Assembly (NCBI GenBank): GCA_037951105.1
Contig: JBAMJV010010556.1
Coordinates: 23,001-87,000 of the forward strand
Direction of reading: 5' to 3'
Length of the DNA: 64,000 nucleotides
Origin: Echinarachnius parma
Lineage: Eukaryota; Echinodermata; Echinoidea; Clypeasteroida; Echinarachniidae
Shown one piece after another: positions 9,885 through 64,000 of the stretch. The translations under genes and the position numbers were made by a program. The notes beneath the pieces were generated by a model that worked only from the letters and a program-made list of their open reading frames with translations, ran no database searches and was not told the origin of the DNA. Numbering within the stretch: position 1 is the first letter of the stretch; every line of letters starts with the position of its first letter.

Positions 9885-12594
9885 CGGAGCGTCGATCCTC
9901 GCGTGCGGGACTGACAATTCGCATAAGGCGCGCACTAGTTGAAGCGATGCCCGCGGCCTCCCACTTGGAAGGATTCTTCAAACTGATATAGGTGCGATAT
10001 TGCTACTAGGGAACGACTGTTAGGTTGTTCTTTATTATCATTTATAACATCATTATCATCACACATTTAATAAGACATGATAATAATGAATGATTTAGAC
10101 ACATTTGGCTTAATATCGAGTCGTTCGACATTTTTTTTTTTTTTTGCCAAACGATTGGGGGGGGGGGGGGGGGCACGTGCCCCCCCCCCCGTGCCCCCGT
10201 GCCCCTCGTAGCTACGCCACTAGAGGTTACAATGATACAAGGGATATTATTCTAGACACTCCCCTTCAAATGTGTCTCATATTATGATTGTATCTCAGAG
10301 TTTGTATTTGTCCAAAAGCTGATTAAATGCTACAATTGTATTAACAAAACTCTGCTTATGATGTTCTCATTTTGTAGTACTTTTACAAGGAATTCCATCA
10401 GTATATTCAGCTGATATATGGGCCCTGGATACATGTGGAGCTTATCTCCTTGAGTGCCAGGCTCGCATTTTTGTGAGTTACAATACACACAAATGCCATA
10501 GAGCATTAAACTCTCTGGCACTTTAAGAGTTAAGCGGGGACCTGGGAATGGTGGAGGGGGGCGGGGGGTATGATCGCGCGATCAAGGGACGTTCCCGAGA
10601 TCTGGAATCCCCTGGAATCATTCGGGGTGGAATTCTCATCAAAAGGTTAAATTTAGCCCGGGTTAAATTTTTTATGGAGCGCCACACTGCAAACAATGCG
10701 CACTTATTTATAAATGCGCGCTTGTACTAGATATGCGCTCTCATCCTTCATAAACGCAGCACAAAACCTATGAATAGACCATTGCGCCTGACGCGTATTT
10801 TTACGCATAACTGGCTGGAAGAAAGTATGAAAAAAGTGTGTAGAAACTTGACAATAATCGTTGATTTTGTCAGATTTATTTGACTTTTCATATAAATAAC
10901 ATGGACTCATCTTGCGTGGAAACCTCCAAACTTCCGCTGTCAAAATCGAGTGTAGAAAGCGCTAATTGAATGGGGAAAAAATAGGATAAGCGCCAATGGA
11001 GACTATGGTGGCAAAGGAGTAACTACCCGGCTTTCCATAAAACAGTGGGTTAAATTTAACCTACTTCTGACGTAAAACGACGCGAAACGACGCGATTTAG
11101 CACGGTGCTAAATATCGGACTCCATGAGAATTCGGGCCTCGAAGTCGCACAAAATCCCCGGCAAACTCCAGACAAGTCCGGGAAACAAGTTTGGAGAAAA
11201 AGATACCCTAAACGCGTATTTGTTTAACTCCACATACATACCCTTTTTTCAGATTTTGGCCTTTTTGACACCCTAAACGGGTCACGCGCGTGACGCGCCA
11301 TGATCGGCAAAAAGTACCCTTTTTACGCGTTTTTTTGGTCGCGCGTGTGTACAGCAATATAGTTGAGTGGCCCCCCCGGGTGATGTCCGTTCTATGCCCG
11401 GTAGCTGTCCTGTACTTGTCTGGCAATCGTGCGTTTGTGTACGTTAAATCCGTTCCATATCCGTTCGTTGGACACTTCGAGCAGCAACGGAGACGACGTT
11501 TGTCACCGAATAATTTTATTTCGCAAATTTTCTATTCGTTCGGCATACGTTTTTGCAATCCGGTCAGATGGTGACCGGGCCTTTAAGTAGCCACCATTAT
11601 TATTATTTCCGAGGGGTGGCAATAATCTCCGCAGGGGTGGGTAATTGGTACTTAGCCCCCTTAACACCCCCGCTACGCACCATTACAATCCATGATAGAT
11701 ATATAGATAGATATATTTTATTTGGTCTTCAAATATACAAATGTTGTAAAGAAATGTGTCATCCATTGGCAAATGGCAAGAGAAGGCAATAATTACCCAG
11801 GGAGCAAAGGGTTTTTTTCATACATGGAACGTTATAAAAGGTTTGGGCCCATTATTGTCTTCTAGGACCTTGTAGAAGCACAACCTAGGTGGACAACCTC
11901 GCGAACTAGCTACTGGAAGGCCAGAAAACACATATTAAGGATTTTACCCCTAATGTACGTTAAAAGCGCCTTAAATCCTTAGGGTTCATGAACATCCTAC
12001 TCTGGTATTTTCACGATTACACCCAAACGCATGCTGATATCATCCAATTGCTTCGAATATGTCTTTCATAGATAGTTGTGCATCTTTTGATACCACATTT
12101 TGCCTTTTTACTTCTATTGTTTTTTGTCACGGGCCTTTTATATGTCACGTGTCAGATATAGAATGTGAAATTTCACATACGCCTATTGACAAAAATATGT
12201 GGAAATGATGCAGATTATAGAATGACACAAATATTTAGCTGTAGAACCTTATACATGTTCGATGACATTTAGTAAGATGAAAAAAAACAGTAAACTAGCA
12301 AAACAAAGGATAAAACAATACAAAATAAAAGAATTTGAAACAAAGAAATACATAAGAATAATTACATCTAATAATTATAATGATAACATGGATGTTATGA
12401 TTTAGCGAACGTATCAATGTATGACGATCGTGGTACGTCATTATGTTTATCCCCAGTCATTGGATATTACATACTGCCATCAATCCAGCACACAAGAGTG
12501 CACATTTCTAACTCACATGGGAGTCTTCCAGCCTGCATGACACCTTGTATATGAATACAGTGCTAATGAATCACGTTCCATCCTTCCGGGCACT

Positions 12595-12662
12595 CTCTGA
12601 TTCCGAACTCGGGACCTCATATGTGGAAAGCTTGTGCCCTTCCAACCTTTCACACCAAGTCC
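12595..12662 (-). mobile_element. tRNA-derived SINE head, fragment
   Basis: The minus strand reads TGGTGTGAAAGGTTGGAAGG and AGGTCCCGAGTTCGGAATC, the same head as at 44440. The body is missing. Confidence 0.5.
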
Positions 12663-13490
12663 ACGCATATACAATCATAGCTATTTATTACAAGCAAAAT
12701 CTTTATAATCTGTTTTGGGCCCTTGGAACTGTTTTCATACTATTTTTGACAATTTTCGTTAAAAATACATAAAATAACCAAACAATCATGTTACAATTCC
12801 AAACAAAGTGATTTTGTGTTCATGCATTGTCTCATATGACATAACAAAGCTGCACTCATTATCATAATAGGGGGCTGGGGGTACGAAGGTACATCGACAT
12901 CGTTTGGAAAGAGTGCTAAATACAAAGACAAAATAACGAGGTATGAAAGCTGACATGTCTTTGGAATGAGTCTTTTTCAACTGATTAGATGACATCCTTG
13001 TAAAGCTTGATAACTTCCATTCGCCAGAAAAAGAAGGCCAACAAAATTAATCCAAACAACAGCAAGAACATGTTCATGCACTTTTTACACATGACACTGA
13101 CATTACCACAAGCAGGAAAGAAATGACAGCTTACTAGTGCAAGTGCAGTCAAACCTGTCTATAGCGACCGCTCAAGGGACCGGCGAAAAGTGGTCGGTGT
13201 AGACAGGTGGTCTCATTAGGCAGGTGGGCTGCCATTTTGAATTTCTGATCGCATATTGTGCCTATATGCACATGTGTAATGAATTGGCATCTGTACACGC
13301 ACGTGTCCAGTGGACAGTTTAACATCTGAACACTTCAATCTTAAATATCTTTTTAACGAAAGGGAAATTCGAAAAACCGAAACCTGTCCCATGCTTCTAT
13401 TGTTAATACGAATACAGCAAGGTATGAGGGAACCACCACCATTACAATTTGATTGTGAGGATTTGGACAATGTTACTAGATCTCTTTAAA

Positions 13491-14446
13491 ATAGACTCCT
13501 ACCACATTTCTAACTATTAAAATCGTACAATACTCTTAAACCCGTTCAGGGCCCCGTTGCAGGAAGAGATACAATCGATTGTAAGATGCAATTAATGGTA
13601 AGTCAGATCACGTGTTTCAGATGCGCAAATCTGATTGGTTGAAACGCGTAAATTTTCTGACTTACAATCAATTGTATATTATAATCGATTGTATCTCTTT
13701 CTGCAACGGGGCCTAGGACTGATTGATTAAATTGGTTAAGTGCCAACATGGCCAACGAGACTATTTTGCCAAACCACGTCCACGTCCACTCAGTAAATAG
13801 TACTCCGCGCAAATGTTGAGAAACTAACCGGCTGTTCAAACATCAGATAGAAGGACGCGATGTTATGATACTTATTTATTAATAATTATTTTAATAAATG
13901 TTCACTCTTTTGTACACATATAATTATCATTTATAATTATGTACTGAATCTACGTTTGAAAAATATATACGAAAATCTGTCGAATTCCTTATACTCGATG
14001 TAATAATGACCCTGGAATATTCAATCCCATATATTAGAGACTAAAATACTTGAATCGAAATGTGATAGCTAGGTGACCAGCCAAAGTCAATCTATAAGCT
14101 GTCTGGTGATAGCTAGGTGACCAGCCAAAGTCAATCTATAAGCTGTCTGAAGTTTATTGTCATTATAAAAGTTGGTTTTATGCATTGACCTGCTCAGGAT
14201 TGGAGCCTTGAGTGACCAGAGGCGACCGAGTTGATGCCTTGGTCGCTCAAGCGCTAATTTTGTGGTCGCTATACACAGATTTATATGTACGTCGGGATCC
14301 AAATAGGGTGGTCGCTGGTCGCGTTAGGCAGGTGGTCGCATTACGCAGGTCGCTTAACACATGATTTTTTCAGGGGAGAACCAGAGAGCGGTCGTTATGA
14401 GCAGGTGGTCGCTATAGACAGGTGGTCGCATTTGCAGGTTTGACTG
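13491..14446 (+). repeat. Dispersed repeat block, copy B
   Basis: Same block as 6461-7344. It has a local tandem duplication of about 46 bp (GTGATAGCTAGGTGACCAGC.. at 14060-14152) and a small insertion in the hairpin. It lies inside the 4.7-kb foldback. Confidence 0.85.
13550..13712. mobile_element. GGCCCCGTTGCA hairpin MITE, copy 2
   Basis: Same ends as the copy at 6529. It has an additional stretch (CAAATCTGATTGGTTGAAAC) near the turn. Confidence 0.88.
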
Positions 14447-16879
14447 TATAAGTCTATTCATATTCCAAAAATTGTGCTTAATGGCGGGGTAGAATCGTTA
14501 TAAAGTCTGGCATAATGAAGAATTTTAAATAGGGGAAAACTGCAAAGTGATCAATCAAACCACAATCATGAGGGTACATAATCATATAAAAAAAACAGTT
14601 ATTGTCAGATGCCAATATATAGTTTATTGGTATTTTCACAAATAACCTATACTATACTTGTGGATTATGCTGATGTAAACTTAATAAGCATTTTTATGAA
14701 TGATACCCCTCTAAATCTAAACGTCATTTAAGATCATACACATTTCTGAAAAGTATTCCTTAATCGCTAAGTATCAATGATGTGCTCAGTAACATGTTAT
14801 AAGTCTACGATCACAAATAGTAGTACATACAGTCATGTAGTTCTTGAACCACAGATGTTGTGCAGTTGACATCTAACACAGGAACTGCCCTGAGCTTCCT
14901 CAGTGAGAACAGTGTTTGGGTGAACAATTTAATAGTTAATGAGTCCTGGAGACATGTACAGTCACCCGATATAACCATAGTTGTTAAAACCATCAACCTG
15001 ACCAGTTCGAGGATTCAAATCATTGACAAGGTGCCATATACAAGCTGTTTATAGTGATCCCTCTTGAGGATCTTTTCTCAATATAGAACATGCTTCTCCA
15101 TGGGAGGTTAGGTCACCATCAATGAGTAGTATGCAATGTCACGGATTCAAACAGTATAGGTCTATGTTTTTCTAAATGTTAAGTGCTCATTCATGATATA
15201 CATTGTTACATGTGTGTCCTTCTAGTCCAATGCACATTTCTATGAGTCAAATACAACTTATAATTATGTGGACTTGTTGAAACAATGATGTACCATGCAT
15301 TATAACTTAAAAGTGTACGATGGTTCAGAAAATGGCCTACAACATTAACACAAATTGTAACATTGTTTAAAGATGTAGAGTAGGTCACTTTTTTTTTCTC
15401 TGGTACGATTATCATTTTTTATCATGATTGTTTTTGTCCATGCCCATTACTGTGTTTGATTGTATTATCGTGTACATGAATAAAAATAATCTTCCTACTT
15501 AACAAATTAACAACAATTCGACTGAGAGTTGAGGTAAGCGCTACTGCCTTTGCCGCTTCATTTATGTTCCCTTATCTTTCCCTACAGGTTACACCTACAA
15601 AATATTTACACTCATTGCTGACTTCTGTATTAGTTCCATGGTAATATTGGCAAAATACGTAACACACATACAAACAAGTATATAAGTGCATTTTTGTCAG
15701 ATACATCATTAAACTGTTATTAGTAAGAAAATCACTTTATTAAATGGTTCATATTGTATTATATTCTTTATTAAGGTCTATTGTATACCTGTACTCGATA
15801 ATCAATATATAGTATTGCCCCAATTGTCCTCATTCTACAATATGTACATTTCATTATCAAACCTATTTTACCTCTATTATAATGATTTAGTAAAATAAGA
15901 TACCAACAATACACTATAAGGAACTCATATTCCTATGTATTTTATTGTTTTCAATTGTTTATGTGTTTTATTATTCTATTGTTTTCGTTTATATCATTTC
16001 ATAAACTTTAACAAATTAAATTGAATGCCATTTGGAGAACTTCAAATACAAATTGTGTAACGTTTTAAATATCTTGAGCATTTCAATGCGTTTTTGTATA
16101 TAACTGAACGTGCAATTTCAAGTCGTTTGTATAATACGCGACTTAAAATGACACGTGACATATTAACCGAAGATATTATGCAGACAAATTTGGTATCAAA
16201 AGATGCACACGACTCTACAAAATACAAATCTGAAGCGATGTGATGATATCATAATGCTTTGTAGTGTAATTTTGTAAATAGCACAGACAAACCTTCATGA
16301 ACCCTAAGGATTTAAGGCGCTATTAACGTACATTATGGGTTAAATCGTTTGTACGCGTTTTGTGAACTTCCAGTAGCTAGATCGCGAGGTTGTCCACCTA
16401 GGTTGTGATCCTAGAAGGTCCTAGAAGACATTTCTGGTGAACAACCTTTTATAACATTCCATGTATGATATCCTTAAAAAAGGGGTGTTTGCTCCCTGGG
16501 TATCTATGGAGAATTATATTTCATATGACTATTATTATTTTATTTGTCATCAAATACTGATGCATCAATAAAATAACATAATGTTGTTCATAAGAACGGA
16601 AATTCGTATTCTGTAATGCTCTATAAGGTTTTACTTATATATACGAATTTCAAAAATGTACCATATTAGACACGAATTAATTAACAATCGTTAGTTCATA
16701 AAAAGCCTCTGATGACATGCAAATATAGATAACACATTTAAAACAAGTACAAATGATATAACCACTCCAATAACAACAACAATGACAACCGGAGCAATAC
16801 TCAATTCCATAATATTATAGGGGCAAAGGTTTTTCGGTGAGGGGGTAGCCTATATGCAAATTAAAGTGCCATAACATAA

Positions 16880-37398: not shown

Positions 37399-38029
37399 AT
37401 CCATGGCCTGCCGGAGACGCCCCAGGAATGCACAGACGACCTTGAGAAGCTAGGGGATCAAGGTGTCACGAAGTGAAATTGACCGTTCGCATCGTGTTTC
37501 TGCAGCCAACGGCAACGCTTCTACTGGACCGAGACCGGTTTTAGTCAAGCTCTGCACATTGAATAGTAAGCTTAGAAAAATTCAATTTAAATTGCTTTAT
37601 AATATTATATATACTAAATTACATTTATATACATTTAGAATGGTTATTAGTAATTTATGTTCTTTTTGTAGTAAATATGAAGAAACTTATGAGCATTTAT
37701 GTTGTCTTTGTGAAAAAGTAAAACCAATTTGGGAAGAGTATGGACATTTATTTAATTTATTAGAGATGAGGAATATAGATTGGATAGGTATCCATGTAGG
37801 AATAGTTGAGTTAAATATACATGATATAGGGAAGGATCTACTATTGAATCATATTATAATTTTGATAAAATATATGATATTTATTAATAGTAAGAATAAT
37901 AATAAACCACCAACTCCTTTGGAAATTAAGAATAGATTATTGGAAAATAGAGAGGAGGAGAAGAAATTAGCAGGGAATCGAGATAAAATAGTATATAATA
38001 ATAATAATAATAATATAGAGCACTTATAA
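37399..38029 (+). pseudogene. L1-type LINE relic: ORF1 joined to the end of ORF2
   Basis: A first frame (37399-37460) reads HGLPETPQECTDDLEKL. After a frameshift an open frame of 188 codons starts with EIDRSHRVSAANG and GPRPVLVKL, the RNA-binding region of L1 ORF1. It then runs directly into KLLYNIIYTKLHLYTF and NLCSFCSKYEETYEHLCCLC, the Cys/His region behind an L1-type reverse transcriptase. The whole endonuclease and RT are missing. The AAT-rich end (about 38000) looks like a LINE tail. Not a working element. Confidence 0.75.
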
Positions 38030-43047: not shown

Positions 43048-46000
43048 GTAAGCCTAGGGCAGCGTGCCCCATGTTATCTAACAATTTTCATACACTAACT
43101 TGGCCAGTACGAAATCCTCAAGTGCGATTTCTTTGAAGCGAAAGTAAATTTTTATTATTTTTATTTGAATAATTTTTATAAGGGAATATGACTTAAATTT
43201 GGTGTGCGAAATATAATTCGAAGTTGTCCATATTAATCTAATAAGAGTATTATGATGTTGCTAGTTTGATATATTCACAGTCATTTTTCCCCTCGAACTT
43301 TCACTTATCTATTAAATTACTTTTAAACCATCTTGACATGGGGGTTGTGCTTTCCGAAGAAATTTTTTCCGAGGCAAAATATTCTCACAACAATCACAGT
43401 CTTCATTCATTTAATTCATTCTTTTATTCAAAAATGTAAACAATACAATATATATATATACAAATATAAGTGATCAGGGAATACACCTAAAAAGCCACGG
43501 CTTGTAAAATTGGGTATTGTCGTCGAACTTGTCGTCGAAATTGTCGTCAAAATTGTCGTCGAACTTGTCGTCGACCTTGTCGTCGAACCCAGCAGTATAT
43601 CACATTACTTGGACAATCATGAAAATATAATTTTTTACAGGGATTGACCACGGTACACCATTTCAGTTACATTTCCAATATTTGTTCTTTCTAATTAAAT
43701 TTATTTCCACTTAAAATCATATACATGAAATACAAATGTATACATACAAATTGAATTGTTTATTGGAGCCAATAGAAGCCAAAGGCTTGTTGAGAAAGGT
43801 TCGAAGGTTTACATAACAATAGTAATGATATGAACATTTATAGCGCAGCTACTGTAAATAAATATTAATATAATAATATGTATATTATGGTTAACATATT
43901 ATGTAAACATTGTCTTTAATAACACTTAGTGCTGTAAGTATAATAGACTATTTGTAAATTTTATTGTAAATGATTCTATGCTGTGGTTCTATTTATATTG
44001 CAACATAATATAGCTGAAAGCTCTAAGGTGTATCCTTGTTGTATAATTCATATCATTATAATAATAATAATAATGATAATAATATAGTTTCTTATAGAGC
44101 GCTAAATACATACATTATTTTTCATAGCTCTTTACATTATTATTACCCCGGCCATACATGTATAGGATACAATGCAAACCAGCACACATTGTGTGTACCA
44201 TCTCCACTCCCCGGGGAGCATTCCTTCCAAGCGACTCATGGACATTGAGAAGATCATTCACATAAAGGCTTTCACCTCCTACCGGTCCCCATGTATACAC
44301 CTGGGTAGAGAGCAGCAATACAAACTTGTGGATAAATTGTCTTGCTAAAGGACAAACGCGGTGGGCCGTGTCCGAACTCGGGATCTCACGATTTAATAAT
44401 TGGAAAGCGTGCGCTTACCAATCTTGCCACACCATTAATTAATGTGTTCTAAATTTTCCTCAGCATAAACAGTACTAGGACAATTGTTATTAAATTCAGT
44501 ATACGATGAAATGTATATAGAACTGATATCAAATTAAAGGGAAAGTAATCCTCTGCGAATCTGGTATAGAAGTATGATGTTAATCATCCATGCACGAAGG
44601 TCTGGCTAATAAAAATCTTGTATACAATAATTGCGCACCCAATCAGCCATTACATTAAAGCATAATTAAAAAAGTCTCTGTTGGCTCACTTTGTAATAGT
44701 CTCTGTAATGAAGCAGTTGAAACCTATACAATATTTGGTATATCTTTTAAAATCGATTTATTCTACAATGTATTATTTCTATATTATTTGAGTGATCCAT
44801 AATCGACAAGCTTCGTTTTTTGGAATATCTTTTAATATTTACGACCATTGTTTACTTTTTGTTTTCAGTTTTCATTGTACGTATATATAGGCTTAGCTAA
44901 CCTTCCCAAATAATGTATACAAATGTATAAGTTTTGTACAATTATGATCTTGGAATTTCAGTGCGGAATAAGAACGACAGGTTAGGGGGCACGCTCAGGT
45001 CTTTAATTTTGAATCTCTTTATTTGTTTGAAATTTTACCTCGCTAATGTTGATTGTGTTCTATTATGTTGTCACTTTATTCGGGGTACGTTCTCATCGAG
45101 CTACCCCCATCCCCTCTCTCTCTCTCTCTATTCCCGGAGCTTTGTCACCGATCAATCTGGTTTTCATCTTTAAGGTCATGTTCATAATACAGTGTGGAAT
45201 AGCTACGGGGTCACGCAAAAATAAAGAAATACATACCCAACAATTTGCGTGCCCCCCCCCCCCCCCCTCCCCAACCCCATCCCCACTTTCCAAATTAGTC
45301 CGACCACACTACACCAGTCTGTCCATATATACCTATATTTTTAAATAATTTGTGCATGTTGTTTATTTCATTGGCAGGTCAACGTAGCGGACTCATGCTC
45401 TCCTATCAAGGTACATTAAGAGAAAGGCGTCGCAATAGTACCACCAGGGCAACAAAATATATATCCAACGCACCAATGAGTCCCCTGATTATAAACCGGT
45501 CAGATATCAGCACACCACTATTTAACACGGAGAAGATCACTTCAAGATTTACTACTCAGTATACACCTATACCACCCACCAACGAAACGTTTGCTGTACT
45601 GACCGGAAGTGACGTGAAAGAGAATGTCCTACATAGTAGTAATGGAGGTAACAATGACGGTGATGATGGTTTCATTGATGGAGAAGAAGTGAGCGGGAAT
45701 GATACTAATAATGTGTTTACTGTTATACGGACAGGTGGCAGTACGTATACGGATTATACTAATGGATTTGATAATCACGTGACCATTGATTCCCAAACCC
45801 GCAGTACTGGTATTGGTTCTGCTAGTCCAGAAAACATGCGCACATCAATAGCGCAGCATGACCATGTGCAATTAGCCTCACAAAATAATCGATTTGATGG
45901 ACACGATGGATCACCGTCCTTGGTTGGATCCACTTCTGATCGAGTGCAGGTTGTCATAGTAACTGCCAAACGCTCCGGTTCTTCATTCGTGGGAGAACTG

Positions 46001-46843
46001 TTCAACTCAAACCATAACGTCTTCTACATGTTTGAGCCTCTGTTTTCAATCACGTTCGATGTGTTGAAACATCGGATGACCAATGAACAAGCGAAATCAA
46101 AGGCCTATGATATATGGAACCACACCCTGCGTTGTAATTATACATTTGCCACAAGCTGGATGAATCGTGGTAGCATCGGCTTATGCAGTCATAGCAAAGC
46201 GTTAAAGGAATCTAAGCTGTTATGCCCACCTAAAGGCGTAAATCGATCCAAGGATGTGACGATCATATCCAAAATATGTCTCAACCGACCTCACACCGTA
46301 CTCAAAACTATTCGTGTGATGGACATCGCCGAGTTGCGGGAATTTCTGGAGGACCCGCGTCTGAATCTAAGAATCCTCCATCTCGTGCGCGACCCACGGG
46401 CCGTCATGAACTCCCGCCGGAAGTTGCACGAACCGAACTCTGACCTCATCCGCAGGAAAGGGCCGAGAGCGGACGAGGTGAAGGATCTGTGTGAGCACAT
46501 GGCGCGGAACCTGCAGTACCGCGATAGCCCGCCGCCGTGGCTCAGAGGCAAGTACACTTTGGTCCGGTTCGAAGACATGGCTCGGGATCCCATCGATCAA
46601 ACCAAGCGGATCTATGAACAGCTCGGCATGGAGCTCGGGCACGACGTCGTGCAGTGGATCGAGAAGAACACGCATGCGGACACGACGAAGTCGGGCAATG
46701 TTAACCCCTTCTCGACTAAGCGCGACACGGAGAGCGTTGTCAACGCGTGGAAGAAGAGTATTGCCAAACCTCTCTGGAGGGACATCGAAATGAAATGTAA
46801 AGACGTCATGAAAACATTGTCATATGAGCCTGAAATGTTGTAA
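42894..46843 (+). CDS. Carbohydrate (6-O-)sulfotransferase, CHST1/CHST3-like, two exons
   Basis: Golgi type II enzyme that transfers sulfate from PAPS to the 6-hydroxyl of a sugar (Gal, GalNAc or GlcNAc) in glycans such as keratan or chondroitin sulfate. Exons 42894-43047 and 45378-46843 join in phase 1 to give 539 aa. The membrane anchor is at about residues 32-48. A long Ser/Thr/Asn- and acid-rich stem runs to about 240. The 5' phosphosulfate loop TAKRSGSSFVGE is at 247-258, and the 3' phosphate site RILHLVRDPRAVMNSR at 383-398. Most vertebrate CHSTs of this group have an uninterrupted coding exon and a shorter stem. The sugar specificity cannot be read from the sequence, so no symbol is given. 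AATAAA overlaps the stop region at 46842-46847 and could serve as a poly(A) signal. Confidence 0.9.
43517..43592. repeat. 12-bp minisatellite in the sulfotransferase intron
   Basis: Six to seven copies of TTGTCGTCGAAC with single-base variants. Confidence 0.85.
44120..44440 (-). mobile_element. tRNA-derived SINE
   Basis: The minus strand starts GTGTGGCAAGATTGGTAAGC (A-box like) and has CCCGAGTTCGGACACGG (B-box like), as in Leu/Ser-type tRNA SINEs. The body with TACACCTGGGTAGAGAGCAG follows. It lies in the sulfotransferase intron. Confidence 0.6.
45378..46843 (+). CDS. Sulfotransferase exon 2: stem and catalytic domain
   Basis: The exon follows TTGGCAG, preceded by a T-rich tract, and starts QRSGLMLSYQ. 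It carries the whole stem and catalytic domain and ends at TAA 46841-46843. The catalytic half from about 46320 is clearly more GC-rich than the stem half, although the frame is continuous. Confidence 0.92.
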
Positions 46844-58094: not shown

Positions 58095-61000
58095 AGAATG
58101 GGCATCTCGACAGAGGTATGGCGGTTTCGCATCGGCGCCTTCCTACCAGCAAACTCTGGTACTCCACATCAAAGGGAGCGCCCTCTCCGGAAGCATCGGC
58201 GAACTTATAAACGTCCACCATCGGATGCACCAACACACCATGTCACTTTGGAGATATTCGTGTGTCTTGTCCTACTGGCCATTGCAGTCTGGACCAGCGT
58301 GAACATGGGGAAAGACCCTTATTTTGACATCAGACAAGGGGCTATCTGTGTTGCAGTAATGACCGTGAAAATGTGTCTGAACCAGCGGCTGCGTTTTCAA
58401 CGGACATGGCGGGTCTACCAAGGTACTCTCAGATATATCCTGCTCATTCTAGCTGCAGCATACTGGACCAGTGAGGAACATCATTCAAAGGACAACACTG
58501 AACAAAGAGTCGCGTGGGAAGCAGTCATCCCATTGGCGTTACGTCATCGATGGGCGCCTATCCAGGGGACAATGTACAATGAATGCATTTCTGCAGTTCT
58601 TAGGCTAGTCCTCCTTGTGTTGCTTCTCCGTTGCGGTGACGTCGAGTCAAACCCTGGCCCAAATCATGATGAAAAGAACGTAAGCATCCTCTCAGCATGC
58701 TCAGTACCGTCTTGGTACATACTTATGTACCCTATGTCATTATTCGTAAAGCTTTCTTATTACAGTGCACAGTAAGGGTTAACCCATCGCCTAGGGGAAC
58801 CTGGTGTGGGATTTAAAACAAATTATAGTAGGGAACTGGTTACAGTAATTTATGAATTAAAGATATATTTGAGTATTTGTTGCGGTCCGTTTTAATGACT
58901 AAGTCCTCAATTCTATGATTGAAACCTGATAATATATATTACTTACCATACTTCCATTGTGCAATAGCAACATAATAGTAAGTATGTGAAATTCCACTAA
59001 CCACATGAACCATACCAGAGTGTTTAAAGTGTAATTTTGCCCGGGAAGATAACACGAATCAACATTACAAGTTATGAATCGAAAATGTGTATACAAAAAG
59101 TATTACATAGCGTATTGTAAAATAAAACGACTCATAAAGTATGTCACATTTAATTCACAGGTTCCAGTAAAAAAGAAGATTATCAAGATCGACCGAGTTG
59201 ATAGAGGACAGAAAATCGGGATAGGTGTGAGTTCCTTGGAAGAGTTGCGCAAGAAGATGTTAGAAAAGTGGCCAGATCTTCAAGATGAGAGCTACACGCT
59301 TCGGGAACAAGATGGGACCGAAATTGAGGACGAAGACTACTTTCTGTCTCTTGAACACAAATCTACCCTGAAACTTCAATTTTCGGAAGCAGGTATTTAT
59401 ATCACCTCTGGCATGCTGGTTTACATAGTCAAAGCATTGTATACTTTAGTGACGTAGATAATAATTATGAACGTGGGAAGATACACTCACTTGTATTCAA
59501 ATTGGGCTGTCTATGATGAGCAGGGACATTTTATGATACTCCTTTGACACTGTAAGGGGAGGGCCAATGTCGAAACAAGTGACTTTAGGTTGCCAGATCT
59601 CCACAACAAGTTTAAACCGATTCTAATTGCAAGTATTTTTAATAAGGCAACATAATTCAGAGGTCTACCTCCAAATTTTTGTTGCGAACACCTCCAAATC
59701 CAAGATGGCGTCCAAAAAGGCAGCCGTTTTGTATTGCTATAGATAATTGGCGAGATTTCCCAAACGACACCTTATATCAAGATTATTCTGCAATCATATT
59801 AAAGACAATTAGATTTCCTATAACCTGATACCAAACACCGTGAGGTTCAGGATATGTATCACGGTCATTTTTAGCCCCAAACTCAAATTTTATGAATTTT
59901 GTCCCCAAAATATGGAATTATTGATTTACATAATTACATATAAATCAATAATTGTATTAGCAGTCAATCTAATACTTTTCAAAAAACTGTCCAATGATAT
60001 CGACAATACACCCTGAAAATTTCAAGTGTATACCGTATCGGAACAACAAGTTATAGTACTTTGAAGTCAGCATTAGCTATCCACAAAATGGGTAGTTTTG
60101 CATGATTTCTCATGCTATACAGGGTGTCTCAAAAATGTGTAATCTAAATAAGAGGATTTGTATACCAAATGATTGCGTCAATCTCGGGACACCTTCAGTT
60201 CCAGTTATGAACAAATACAAAAAGAAACACAATTTCTTGTAATATGATGAATATTTCACCATCATTATGTATAGTCCGCGTAGATGTTGTGTCTGTCCTG
60301 AATTTGTTTAACTGCATTTATCATAAATCAAACGCTAAAAATGAACTTAATTTCACTCCACATGAAGCATTCCAGTCAGCTGCATACTGACGCGCATGCC
60401 ATGCATATTGCGAATTCGAATCATACTGGGTGTCCATGATGTGTTTAAAACAGTATCAAGATCATGCTCATTATCTTTAATAAGTGTCTTACTGAAGGAC
60501 TGAAGTACACAATATTCGGGACATACTGTAATATGTGCAGAGCGTATCTAGCTTCGAACACCATCTTGATCGCGAGGAACGCACCCTTCATGCCCCTCAT
60601 ATCTTATTACATGTAACTGGAGACCATAAAGGTCTATACAATTTGTCTGACTCAGTATTAAAACAAAACAATCTCAATTGCTAAACTAATATGCACAACA
60701 CCAAAAAGCCTCAGCAAGCCGAATGTTTATTTTTTTTGCACTACACTGTACTCGTGTAACCATGGTAACAACAGCCGATTATGGACAACGATATACCAAA
60801 TCAACAAATATTTACTTTCAAAACTTTAAAATAGCAGCTATAGGGTGTTATTTTACATGTGATTTGTTTTCTTCCATGTTCACGCGAAAATTAGTGTGCA
60901 TAATGCGGCTTGTAGTAGCCAAATATATGATTTTTTATATTTCTATTGTTGTTGTTACTACGGTTACAAATGTACATGGTGGTACAAAAAAGTTACCCTA

Positions 61001-64000
61001 AGATAAACCTAATAGCCTATTTAAAGTGTTTTCCAAATCCTGAAAAAGTCTAGCTAACTGTGGTGTTCCGATTAATAATCATGTTAAAAACATAATTATC
61101 AAGATATGGTCGATCCAAGTCATCCAACTGTAAATGACGAGCGCCTCCCATTCGAATATTGCACTATGCACTTTGCATGATGGATTTATTATTGCAGTGA
61201 AATTACCGATACACTATTTTCGTGTACTATTGCAAACCGATGGCGCCATATTTATGACATAAAAGAAGAAAACTGAAGGTTTTGCTAAAAAATGGTATCA
61301 ACAATATGTCATTATTTAGGAGAAATTCTTGAATAAAGTCCGTAAACAAGAATTACATTTATTGGGGCACCATGTATAGTGTTCGAAATCGTACAAATTG
61401 GCTGTATTTGTCGATATCAAATGCTGAGTTCCAAGAACTATAACTTTTTGTTCAGATACAATATACACTTGAAATTTTTAGAGAGTATTGTTAATATAAT
61501 TGGACAGTTTTTCGAAAAGTATTAATTCAACTGCTAATGCAATTATTGATATATGCCGAATTATGTAAATCAATAATTTCATATTTTTGGGGAAAAATGC
61601 CTAAAATTTGAGTTTGGGGCTAAAAATGACCGTGTTACATATTCTGAAACCCATTGTGTTTGGTATCAGATTATAGGAAATGTGATTGTCTTTAATATGA
61701 CTGCAAAATCATGCCTATTCCACGTGTTGTTTGTGAAATATTGCCAATAATCTATAGCAAGTCAATACGACTACTTTTTTGGACGCCATCTTGGATTTGA
61801 AGGTGTTCGCAACAACATTTTTGAGGTAGACCTCCGAATTAATTTGTCTCACTAAAAATACTTGCAAATAAAATTGGTTTAAACTTGTTGTGGAGATCTG
61901 GCAACCTAAGTCCTTAAGGAAGCCACTTTTTCGATGTTGGCCCTCCCCTTACTGGCTCCTAATACACTGCCCCTTGAGCTAAATATGACAACGATATCAT
62001 TTATTGTTATTCAACATTGTGCACTGTTTTCTGTCGTGTTATTTCTTTTTAAGGAGGAATGTTTACTATGTGCTTCATGTCAGTTTGTCATGGGCTACTT
62101 TCATAATGGGAGCCCTTTTATCATGTGTTCACCTCACATCTAATTTAGCTACGAGCGCCAGTGCGAAAGGCAAATTGGTACGCAATTTGTACATCGTGTA
62201 GATTTCCTGAACATTGTGAAAATCAAACTTCTCCCGATTTTGTTGTTATGAATTTACAGGACCTCGTCGAATCCCGCAGTTAGACATGCCCATCGGAGCA
62301 CCATCGCCAGTCACCAAACGTCGTCTAAGGGACGACACCATATATGAGATTGCACTCAACCGTCTTCGAAGCATTTCCAAACTGGGGATTGCCATGGGCT
62401 TCGATTATGATCGCGTAATAAAGTACGAACAACAGAACAGTGGTCTGACGGAATGTCCTGGAACCAGAAATATGATTCTTGACTGGCGTAAAGAGAAGGT
62501 GAAAACACAGGATCAGGTCAAGGAATTCTGCGATGTTCTGAAGAAGGCCAAACAAGCTCGATTAGCTGAAGATCTGGAGAAAGGTTTGTCACTCTTGATA
62601 CCAGCTCCGGTTCCATACCCACCTTTGTATTTGTTTGTGATGCATACAATTTTTTGTGAAAACAAAACATGTTGTTGCCCTGAATGTCAGTTAAATGATG
62701 ACGTACTGTTTGCTGTGAAACTGGCTTTCCTGTAATCTTGTTGAATCATGAAAGATCAAAGCTTACACAGTTCCTTGTTACATGATATTATACTGATTGA
62801 TATGCTACTATGCTATACATTCATCTAATGTCCATCTATGTTCAGGTTGAATTTCCTATTTGAGCCTGTACAGGCCCACCAGTGAACAATTGATCAAATA
62901 ATCTTAAAACATGAATGTCCAGTCAGGCTGATGCGCCCGTAGCATTAATTAATGTAATGTAAAATGAGATGCATATAACACACATTTTAAATTACAATGT
63001 ATTTCAGACCTTCCCTTGATATTCAGTTTAAGTGTCTACTTTTATTATTAAACAATCGATGAACGTTTTAATTTTAAGCATATTCTGCATACCTATTTCA
63101 TGATATATTTTAAATAATTGTATACCGTTTTCTGTCTCGTCATTTCTATTTAAGGTGAAATCTTTAAGGGAGAGAGAACTGCCCAAGGTCACGACATGTT
63201 GCAACTTCAACGGGAGTTGGAACGGTACTACGTAGATTTTCTCTGCTTCACCAGGACAATACCTTGGAAGAAGGACTCCGCAGTCCAAATCAGCGATTTC
63301 TTTAAACCTGTATCCCTGTTCCACCGTGAAAAGACATCTAAGCGTGATTCCAGGGGCTGCGAAGAGTCACATCGTCTGGCATTCACTGGTAAGGAGCAAA
63401 CAGGAAAGACGATAGGCATCTTCAACTCCGATGACAATCCCTCATCGACTGAAACAATGACTTTCCTGAAAAGTTCGCACAACGATATCTTCACTGTCAA
63501 ACAGAACGGCGTGTGTCCTCGACGCTTCCTAGTCATCGGAGATCCTGGAGTTGGTAAATCGACATTGCTTCTTAAGTTAGCGCACGATTGGGCAGTAGCT
63601 TCGGACAGTTCGCCCCTTAAACGCGTTCAAATATTGATTCATCTGACACTAAAAGGTGTCCCTCTAAACGCAAACCTCGGCGAAGAGATAAAGAAACAGA
63701 TCTTACCCAGCGATACAACGCTTGACTCTGATAAAATAGAACAGTGCATCAAGGAAAGTGGTGATGTTGTGATACTTCTCGATGGTTTTGATGAATCTGA
63801 GTTTGCATCTCAGCCACCCAATCAACATCCAGAAAAATGTGGTAGTCTATACAATACCATAAAGTTCGACACATTTCGAAATTGCAGAGTTCTTGTTACC
63901 GTTCGGACATGGAAAGAGAGTCATTTTCGTGGGGACCTCTTCAATCCATATGCCGTTATATTCATTGGCGGGCTAATGCCATCTTCCATCAAAGAATTCA
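58095..64000 (+). CDS. NLR-type receptor: 2A leader, CIDE-N, Death domain, NACHT (3' end beyond window)
   Basis: Predicted cytosolic STAND ATPase of the NLR class, likely an immune or cell-death sensor. Exons 58098-58679 (coding), 59161-59392, 62260-62583 and 63155-64000 (open to the window end) join in phases 0, 1 and 1. All have GT donors and AG acceptors. Order of domains: hydrophobic leader ending in 2A motif CGDVESNPGP (179-188), CIDE-N (195-271), Death domain (about 285-378), linker, and NACHT with Walker A GDPGVGKS (508-515) and Walker B VVILLDGFDE (584-593). LRRs would be expected beyond the edge. 2A at the N-terminus is known for some sea-urchin NLRs. A CIDE-N domain in an NLR is, to my knowledge, unusual. 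Skipping at Gly187/Pro188 would release the receptor from its leader. Splicing is inferred from phase, so additional or alternative exons are possible. Confidence 0.82.
58098..58679 (+). CDS. NLR exon 1: hydrophobic leader with 2A ribosome-skipping motif
   Basis: 194 codons ending PNHDEKN before donor GTAAGC. Hydrophobic stretches lie at about residues 51-67, 82-93, 111-122 and 170-178. The last runs straight into LLRCGDVESNPGP, which fits the 2A consensus D(V/I)ExNPGP. Two starts are plausible. The ATG at 58098 has A at -3 and G at +4, with TAG directly upstream in frame. An internal ATG at 58572 (Met159, A at -3) would give a 30-residue leader up to the 2A proline, like the short 2A leaders of sea-urchin NLRs. 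CTGTTTTAG at 58086-58094 looks like a 3' splice site, so a 5' non-coding exon may exist. Confidence 0.78.
58572..58664 (+). other. 2A-type translational recoding signal with hydrophobic lead-in
   Basis: From Met159 the peptide is a leucine/valine-rich segment (AVLRLVLLVLLLR) followed by CGDVESNPGP. In known 2A peptides the ribosome fails to form the Gly-Pro bond and continues, giving two proteins from one mRNA. The coding triplets for NPGP are AAC CCT GGC CCA. All consensus residues are present. Confidence 0.85.
59161..59392 (+). CDS. NLR exon 2: CIDE-N (CAD/DFF) domain
   Basis: 77 codons plus one base. The exon follows TTAATTCACAG and ends G|GTATTT. The basic start (VPVKKKIIKIDRVDRGQK), GVSSLEELRKKMLEKWPDL, and the acidic turn REQDGTEIEDEDYFLSLE match the CIDE-N fold of CAD, ICAD and CIDE proteins, including the DGTxxxDExYF signature. 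CIDE-N domains polymerise through one basic and one acidic face, and both faces are visible here. The domain fills exactly one exon, as expected for a shuffled module. Confidence 0.88.
59552..61952 (+). mobile_element. 2.4-kb foldback element in the NLR intron
   Basis: Long imperfect inverted arms begin GTAAGGGGAGGGCCAA and end TTGGCCCTCCCCTTAC. Matching arm sequence continues inward for about 600 bp, including CCAAGATGGCGTCCAAAAA at 59700 and its complement near 61785. It carries no coding frame of note. It occupies most of the intron between the CIDE-N and Death exons. Confidence 0.8.
62260..62583 (+). CDS. NLR exon 3: Death domain
   Basis: Codons 273-379. The acceptor is AATTTACAG and the donor AAAG|GTTTGT, which is weaker than the others. 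A short linker (PRRIPQLDMPIGAPSPVTKR) precedes a six-helix-type sequence: LNRLRSISKLGIAMGFDYDR, VIKYEQQNSGLTECPGTRNM, ILDWRKEK and VKEFCDVLKKAKQARLAEDL. The spacing and the hydrophobic and Trp positions fit the Death domain. CARD or DED are less likely alternatives within the same superfamily. Confidence 0.8.
63155..64000 (+). CDS. NLR exon 4: linker and NACHT ATPase (runs off window)
   Basis: It follows TTCTATTTAAG and is open to base 64000. A linker of about 120 residues (RELERYYVDFLCFTRTIPW and following) leads to the NACHT core. The core has RRFLVIGDPGVGKSTLLLKL (Walker A), the conserved LAHDWA after it, VVILLDGFDES (Walker B with the extended acidic residues), and NCRVLVTVRTW (sensor 1). 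The motifs look functional. The C-terminal winged-helix and repeat region lies outside. Confidence 0.93.

Follow-up and report, generated by a model that had tools for sequence, protein, structure and literature searches.

In animals, the effector domain of an NLR is usually of the Death fold, and it is part of the general picture of this family that a ligand, sensed by the C-terminal repeats, drives the oligomerization of the NACHT domain. The filament-forming, ubiquitin-like CIDE-N domain is familiar from other settings, namely the DNA-cutting enzyme of apoptosis and proteins of fat droplets. The text of PMC7156525 describes CIDE domains as assembling into head-to-tail helical filaments via opposed basic and acidic faces. 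For the sea urchin, the main text of PMC4981915 reports N-terminal 2A-like sequences in about 35% (85/241) of the NLR proteins; the one 2A of a sea urchin NLR that is described there as tested skips and, when unskipped, serves as a signal sequence. In the main texts on the NLRD proteins of sea urchin and amphioxus (PMC11508797, PMC2575513) the word CIDE is absent. The Hydra genome paper counts CIDE-N among the enriched domains, and its passages on this enrichment draw no link to NACHT. No CIDE-N NLR was found in a partial search of the literature that covered main texts, and to this extent the literature agrees with a preliminary description of the present locus, to whose author CIDE-N was not known as a standard NLR effector.

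The window analyzed here is the final 64 kb (64,000 bases) of contig C10534 (87,000 bases), and the genome searched comprises 1.2 Gb in 14,790 contigs. Its COX1 reads AAA (one codon) as Asn, AGA as Ser, ATA as Ile and TGA as Trp at conserved positions, which is the mitochondrial code of echinoderms and flatworms; taken together with a very large NACHT repertoire, this makes the animal probably an echinoderm. Four exons on the forward strand of the window can be joined in phase, giving a leader with a 2A motif, a CIDE-N, a Death and a NACHT domain in 661 predicted residues. Exon 1 (58098–58679, predicted, with an assumed start codon) encodes a leader of 194 amino acids with hydrophobic stretches and ends at the phase 0 donor AAC/GTAAGC. 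Exon 2 (59161–59392) encodes the CIDE-N domain, exon 3 (62260–62583) a divergent Death domain with indirect support and exon 4 (63155–64000, 5' part) the NACHT ATPase. The splice sites fit, with phases 0, 1 and 1. The frame is still open at window position 64000, which is the end of the contig (87000), the break lying inside the NACHT domain and the 3' part of the gene being missing. That the CIDE-N, Death and NACHT exons form one predicted gene is supported, and their compatible phase, which the preliminary description had already claimed, was borne out. Its domain identities are supported as well, directly for CIDE-N and NACHT and indirectly, via relatives, for Death. Because the in-phase exon 58098–58679 comes first, the residue numbers 195–271 that had been given to CIDE-N can also be understood.

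Within the intron between the CIDE-N and Death exons lies a fold-back DNA element of 2.4 kb (59553–61951) with inverted arms of 503 nucleotides that are 85% complementary. It was recognized as an alignment gap against the related loci on contigs C13759 and C10852, is absent from both, and its flanks, when compared to C13759, show what is apparently a 3-bp target duplication (CTG). Elsewhere in the window, an open frame at 45299–46840 contains a sulfotransferase domain (Sulfotransfer_1, 53.2 bits), and a weak remnant of a reverse-transcriptase zinc-binding domain is found at 37454–38026 (zf-RVT, 22.3 bits, under the cut-off of 27.5).

The CIDE-N exon matches the profile PF02017 at 59173–59370 with 52.8 bits (E 4.1e-14, cut-off 23.5) and is the best match of the whole genome (51.6 bits in the genome-wide search). 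A phmmer search of the PDB returned 11 sequences at E<=1, the top ten of which are all CIDE-N proteins (DREP4, CIDE-3 twice, ICAD, DREP3, CIDE-A, DREP2, DFF45, DFF40 and CIDE-B), while the eleventh is unrelated (E 0.91). Another ubiquitin-like fold for exon 2 was rejected, CIDE-N being its sole Pfam family up to E 1. The identification as CIDE-N in the preliminary description was thus confirmed by the profile search and the ten best PDB matches, and so was its NACHT ATPase with Walker motifs: exon 4 matches PF05729 with 55.4 bits (E 8.8e-15, cut-off 26.7), and both Walker A (63538–63561) and Walker B (63766–63795) can be read in the sequence. The NACHT repertoire of this genome is very large, with 99 scored out of 608 candidates and all 99 of these over the cut-off. 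One NACHT match (C9645:64156-64716) falls within a reading frame that stays open for 21,670 amino acids, which is implausibly long and perhaps represents a masked or N-filled stretch.

For the Death domain the evidence is of another kind. Exon 3 scores 13.8 bits against Pfam Death (E 0.064, cut-off 22.6), next to 12.4 bits for the unrelated Herpes_env, and the longer frame of the window around it reaches 12.9 bits. The Death copy of the first of two related genes on C10852 (C10852a) places Herpes_env (19.2 bits) ahead of Death (16.1 bits), both under the cut-off, the C13759 frame spanning the Death exon has no Pfam match at all up to E 1, and profile searches of the PDB with the Death exons returned no Death domain entry. 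When the genome was searched with exon 3, on the other side, 38 of 106 candidates matched at E<=0.1. Three of these belong to CIDE-N genes, and 10 of the 35 others are followed on their own strand, at a distance of up to about 8 kb, by a listed NACHT match, a count that is based on partial NACHT listings; homologous exons hence precede NACHT exons. When five of the relatives were scanned, one exceeded the Death cut-off, two had Death as their best match below it and two matched nothing; the best relative elsewhere in the genome, on C9453, reaches 28.3 bits for Death. We therefore regard exon 3 as a putative divergent Death domain, for which the support from its relatives is reasonable if indirect.

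In the leader, hydropathy is highest at residues 49–65 and 163–179, and the hydrophobic N-terminal stretch is followed by the NPGP-ending 2A-like motif CGDVESNPGP (58632–58661), a ribosome-skipping signature which is read directly in the sequence. Homologous leaders are present at C3442, C10195, C12685, C10852 (two), C13759 and C1985, and the DVExNPGP core of the motif recurs in the other leaders. With the C3442 leader as genome query, 14 rows were obtained, which represent three 2A-only matches and 8 leader loci, namely the 7 CIDE-N loci described below (three of them in two pieces each) and C1985. The leader with its 2A motif is thus common to 7/7 CIDE-N loci and to one further NLR-like gene. 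In the latter, C1985, leader and 2A are followed by an exon of matching phases and by a frame of 752 amino acids with a readable P-loop. Up to E 5, the post-leader exon of C1985 has no Pfam match, and with 0.1 bit in an unfiltered scan and a probability of 0.2 in hhalign it is not assignable to CIDE-N, so that the gene is not counted; the first 119 residues of the 752-aa frame, when scanned against Pfam, gave no match. Three short frames with DLRVALFLLLLVCGDVESNPGP (C3540:107566-107661, C2551:174479-174574 and C12405:45825-45920) correspond to a 2A leader without the remainder of the C3442-type leader.

Searching the genome for CIDE-N at E<=10 yielded 9 rows, which represent 7 loci, since two rows are the second repeats of C3442 and C10195; five of the nine exceed the cut-off in the genome search, and C3442 does so when its whole exon is scanned. 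At 7/7 loci CIDE-N lies upstream of NACHT. Paralogs with the same domain order had been called for as a check, and the order CIDE-N, Death, NACHT indeed recurs at C13759 and C10852a, so that it is seen at three loci including the window. In the remaining four (C10852b, C12685, C3442 and C10195) a single exon encodes a pair of CIDE-Ns, no Death domain is recognized and NACHT follows; their whole exons, where scanned, reach 39.5 bits (C12685) and 38.3 bits (C3442) with two matched stretches each, and C10852 holds one gene of each arrangement. A complete open model of 2019 amino acids with fitting splice phases could be built for C3442, consisting of the leader (10026–10457), the CIDE-N pair (10726–11179) and an exon for NACHT and a leucine-rich tail including the stop (11449–16622). 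This last exon runs on as a long leucine-rich tail, in which one LRR family reaches 24.6 bits (cut-off 27). Compared to its NACHT frame of 1741 amino acids, those of C13759 (707) and C10852a (737) are short, and the mutual homology of the latter two stops near the ends of these frames.

When the NACHT domain of the window was used as query, the 7 CIDE-N loci were the best 7 of 138 listed matches (172–643 bits), the remaining 131 reaching at most 95.3 bits (559 candidates). A tree was built from 12 rows, namely the 7 CIDE-N genes, C1985 and four other listed NACHTs. It groups all 7 CIDE-N genes together at a branch supported by 99/99; the tree is midpoint-rooted and contains long branches including C1985 and C1114. 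The predicted CIDE-N/NACHT fusion is consequently a small family and not a one-off, most simply explained by CIDE-N having been captured once and later duplicated in tandem within one branch. C10195 and C3442 are identical in leader and CIDE-N, with two differing sites in the compared NACHT stretch; they may be alleles, in which case the distinct genes would number six.

The two arrangements differ in their predicted charges. From its sequence, the CIDE-N of the window carries +4 in the segment beta1-beta2 and -6 around the DGT loop, and its paralogs of the single subfamily +4 and -5. The four tandem CIDE-Ns that were measured (C3442 and C12685) have 0 to -2 and -3 to -7, respectively, and lack the basic face; the window CIDE-N is thus bipolar by its predicted charges and the tandem ones are acidic. 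With the FSP27 residue numbers of PMC7156525 mapped onto an alignment to CIDE-3, the window keeps the basic character at R46 and R55 and the acidic one at D88 and E93; at K56 and E87 the charge is not kept. Because of these patterns, a single CIDE-N could polymerize, while the tandem looks like an acidic dock and, judged by its charges, should not self-polymerize by the canonical mode. The acidic DG loop is kept across the subfamilies although they are only 30–32% identical in CIDE-N.

Between paralogs, the parts of these genes have changed at very different rates. The dN/dS values for NACHT are 0.16–0.23 in the single and 0.12–0.15 in the tandem subfamily (leaving out the near-identical pair C3442/C10195 with 0.28, one change of each kind), and on these ratios NACHT is under purifying selection. 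The leader of the tandem genes has 0.08–0.27, with a small effect from one codon past the donor site that was included in the compared leaders of C12685 and of C10852b, and the leucine-rich tail has 0.39 in one pair. Values are higher for Death (0.63–0.76) and for CIDE-N, with 0.79 between the window and each of C13759 and C10852a (6 replacement and 2 silent changes), 0.88 for both repeats of C3442/C12685 and 0.46 for the first repeat of C3442/C10852b. In the pair C3442/C12685, using rounded counts, CIDE-N is faster than NACHT (Fisher p 1.4e-7) and the leader (p 2.6e-5) and does not differ from neutral (p 0.61), i.e. no constraint is detectable between these close paralogs. Such fast change is not what a partner interface under strict conservation would show, and relaxed and diversifying evolution fit it equally. 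The CIDE-N sequences C13759:8965-9195 and C10852:9277-9507 are identical over 231 bases and are accompanied by many differences in Death and NACHT, which suggests gene conversion or strong local constraint.

The receptor is hence predicted to be an NLR gene whose N-terminal signaling region holds CIDE-N between a 2A leader and a putative Death domain, and the combination of CIDE-N and NACHT, as far as sequence can tell, is a real and repeated one within the NLR kind that is undescribed in the literature searched. The reading we mildly prefer is that of an NLR with a CIDE-N signaling region, in which the protein is divided by its 2A motif and the NACHT assembly clusters CIDE-N in parallel to Death signaling. 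We infer the expression of this receptor, the skipping, the polymerization and the partner. The 2A motif would skip during translation, so that most of the protein would start at Pro188, with the CIDE-N exon following 7 residues on (residue 195), while the unskipped protein, by analogy to the sea urchin NLR work, would retain the hydrophobic leader and go to membranes. The C-terminal repeats would sense a ligand and NACHT would oligomerize, and the clustered CIDE-Ns would then polymerize head to tail (basic to acidic) or dock a partner bearing CIDE-N, alongside Death signaling. In the Death-less sister subfamily, signaling probably falls to the acidic CIDE-N pair, which would need a basic CIDE-N partner. 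We take the charge pattern of the window CIDE-N to be compatible with either of the outcomes proposed in the preliminary description, filaments of CIDE-N or recruitment of a nuclease like CAD.

A stronger version makes CIDE-N a true NLR effector, nucleating filaments where it is single and forming a double acidic, ICAD-like dock where it is tandem, with the 2A leader dividing the receptor between cytosol and membranes; the double dock would take a basic CIDE-N partner, e.g. a CAD-like nuclease. This we hold tentatively, at rather less than even chances. Against the mildly preferred reading count the fast CIDE-N, the acidic-only tandem CIDE-Ns and the unrecognized CAD and DFF-C, and likewise a C13759 leader exon in two parts some 7 kb from each other, the short NACHT frames of C13759 and C10852a, a frameshift in the C10852b CIDE-N exon and the truncation of the window copy at the contig end. 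Scanning the genome exon by exon for the CAD nuclease (DFF40) gave at best 20.6 bits (cut-off 25) with two internal stops and recognized no DFF-C domain, in searches that also matched 0/14 control genomes, so that an absence of CAD/ICAD is not demonstrable by them.

The high rates in CIDE-N and Death relative to NACHT and leader, with several of the CIDE-N changes at charged residues, would also be expected of an integrated decoy, for which the integrated domains of plant NLRs are the model: CIDE-N would be a bait that imitates an apoptosis protein attacked by pathogens and would sense interference without relaying a signal. The place of CIDE-N, however, immediately behind the 2A site, is that of an effector, it is the only recognized N-terminal module of the Death-less subfamily, and we know of no pathogen factor that targets CIDE-N here, which makes this explanation an unlikely one. 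The bipolar charges of the window CIDE-N, and the Death-like exons that accompany other NLRs of this genome, would suit a passive role in which CIDE-N merely stabilizes the NACHT oligomer and Death signals; such an aid is improbable, given a tandem subfamily without a recognized Death domain whose measured CIDE-Ns lack the basic face. The dN/dS near 1 between close paralogs, the C10852b frameshift and the damaged C13759 leader may further point to a decaying or neutral passenger exon that was captured once and has since lost its function. This is quite improbable, however, as the CIDE-N frame is open at 6/7 loci, the acidic DG loop has persisted between the divergent subfamilies and, after tandem duplication, both repeats of C3442 and C12685 still match the profile. 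An annotation artifact, in which the CIDE-N exon would belong to a gene of its own next to an NLR, can hardly be maintained, since order and orientation are the same at 7 loci in two subfamilies and the exon lies between the leader and the Death/NACHT exons with fitting phases wherever modeled.

If a CIDE-N signaling region in NLRs is true, a second polymer fold would have been recruited to immune signaling, in two arrangements, with a CIDE-N route parallel to the filaments of Death, CARD and PYD, and sensing would be coupled directly to DNA fragmentation or to the biology of lipid droplets. A CIDE-N front end of NLRs suggests a new way to relay an alarm signal in the cell.

Compared to CAD/DFF40, ICAD/DFF45, DREP and CIDE-A/B/C, the predicted receptor shares a CIDE-N near the N-terminus, here after the predicted 2A skip, but it is a NACHT receptor, and neither a nuclease nor DFF-C was recognized in the exons scanned. 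As in NLRs of S. purpuratus, the NLR part is preceded by a hydrophobic N-terminus that carries a 2A motif; the paper on those NLRs (PMC4981915), however, names Death as the NLR effector domain, and 'CIDE' is absent from its main text. With its putative N-terminal Death domain and its NACHT, and in belonging to a large expanded family, it resembles the NLRD proteins (Death-NACHT-LRR) of sea urchin and amphioxus as their main texts describe them (PMC11508797, PMC2575513), from which the predicted receptor family differs in that CIDE-N precedes or replaces Death.
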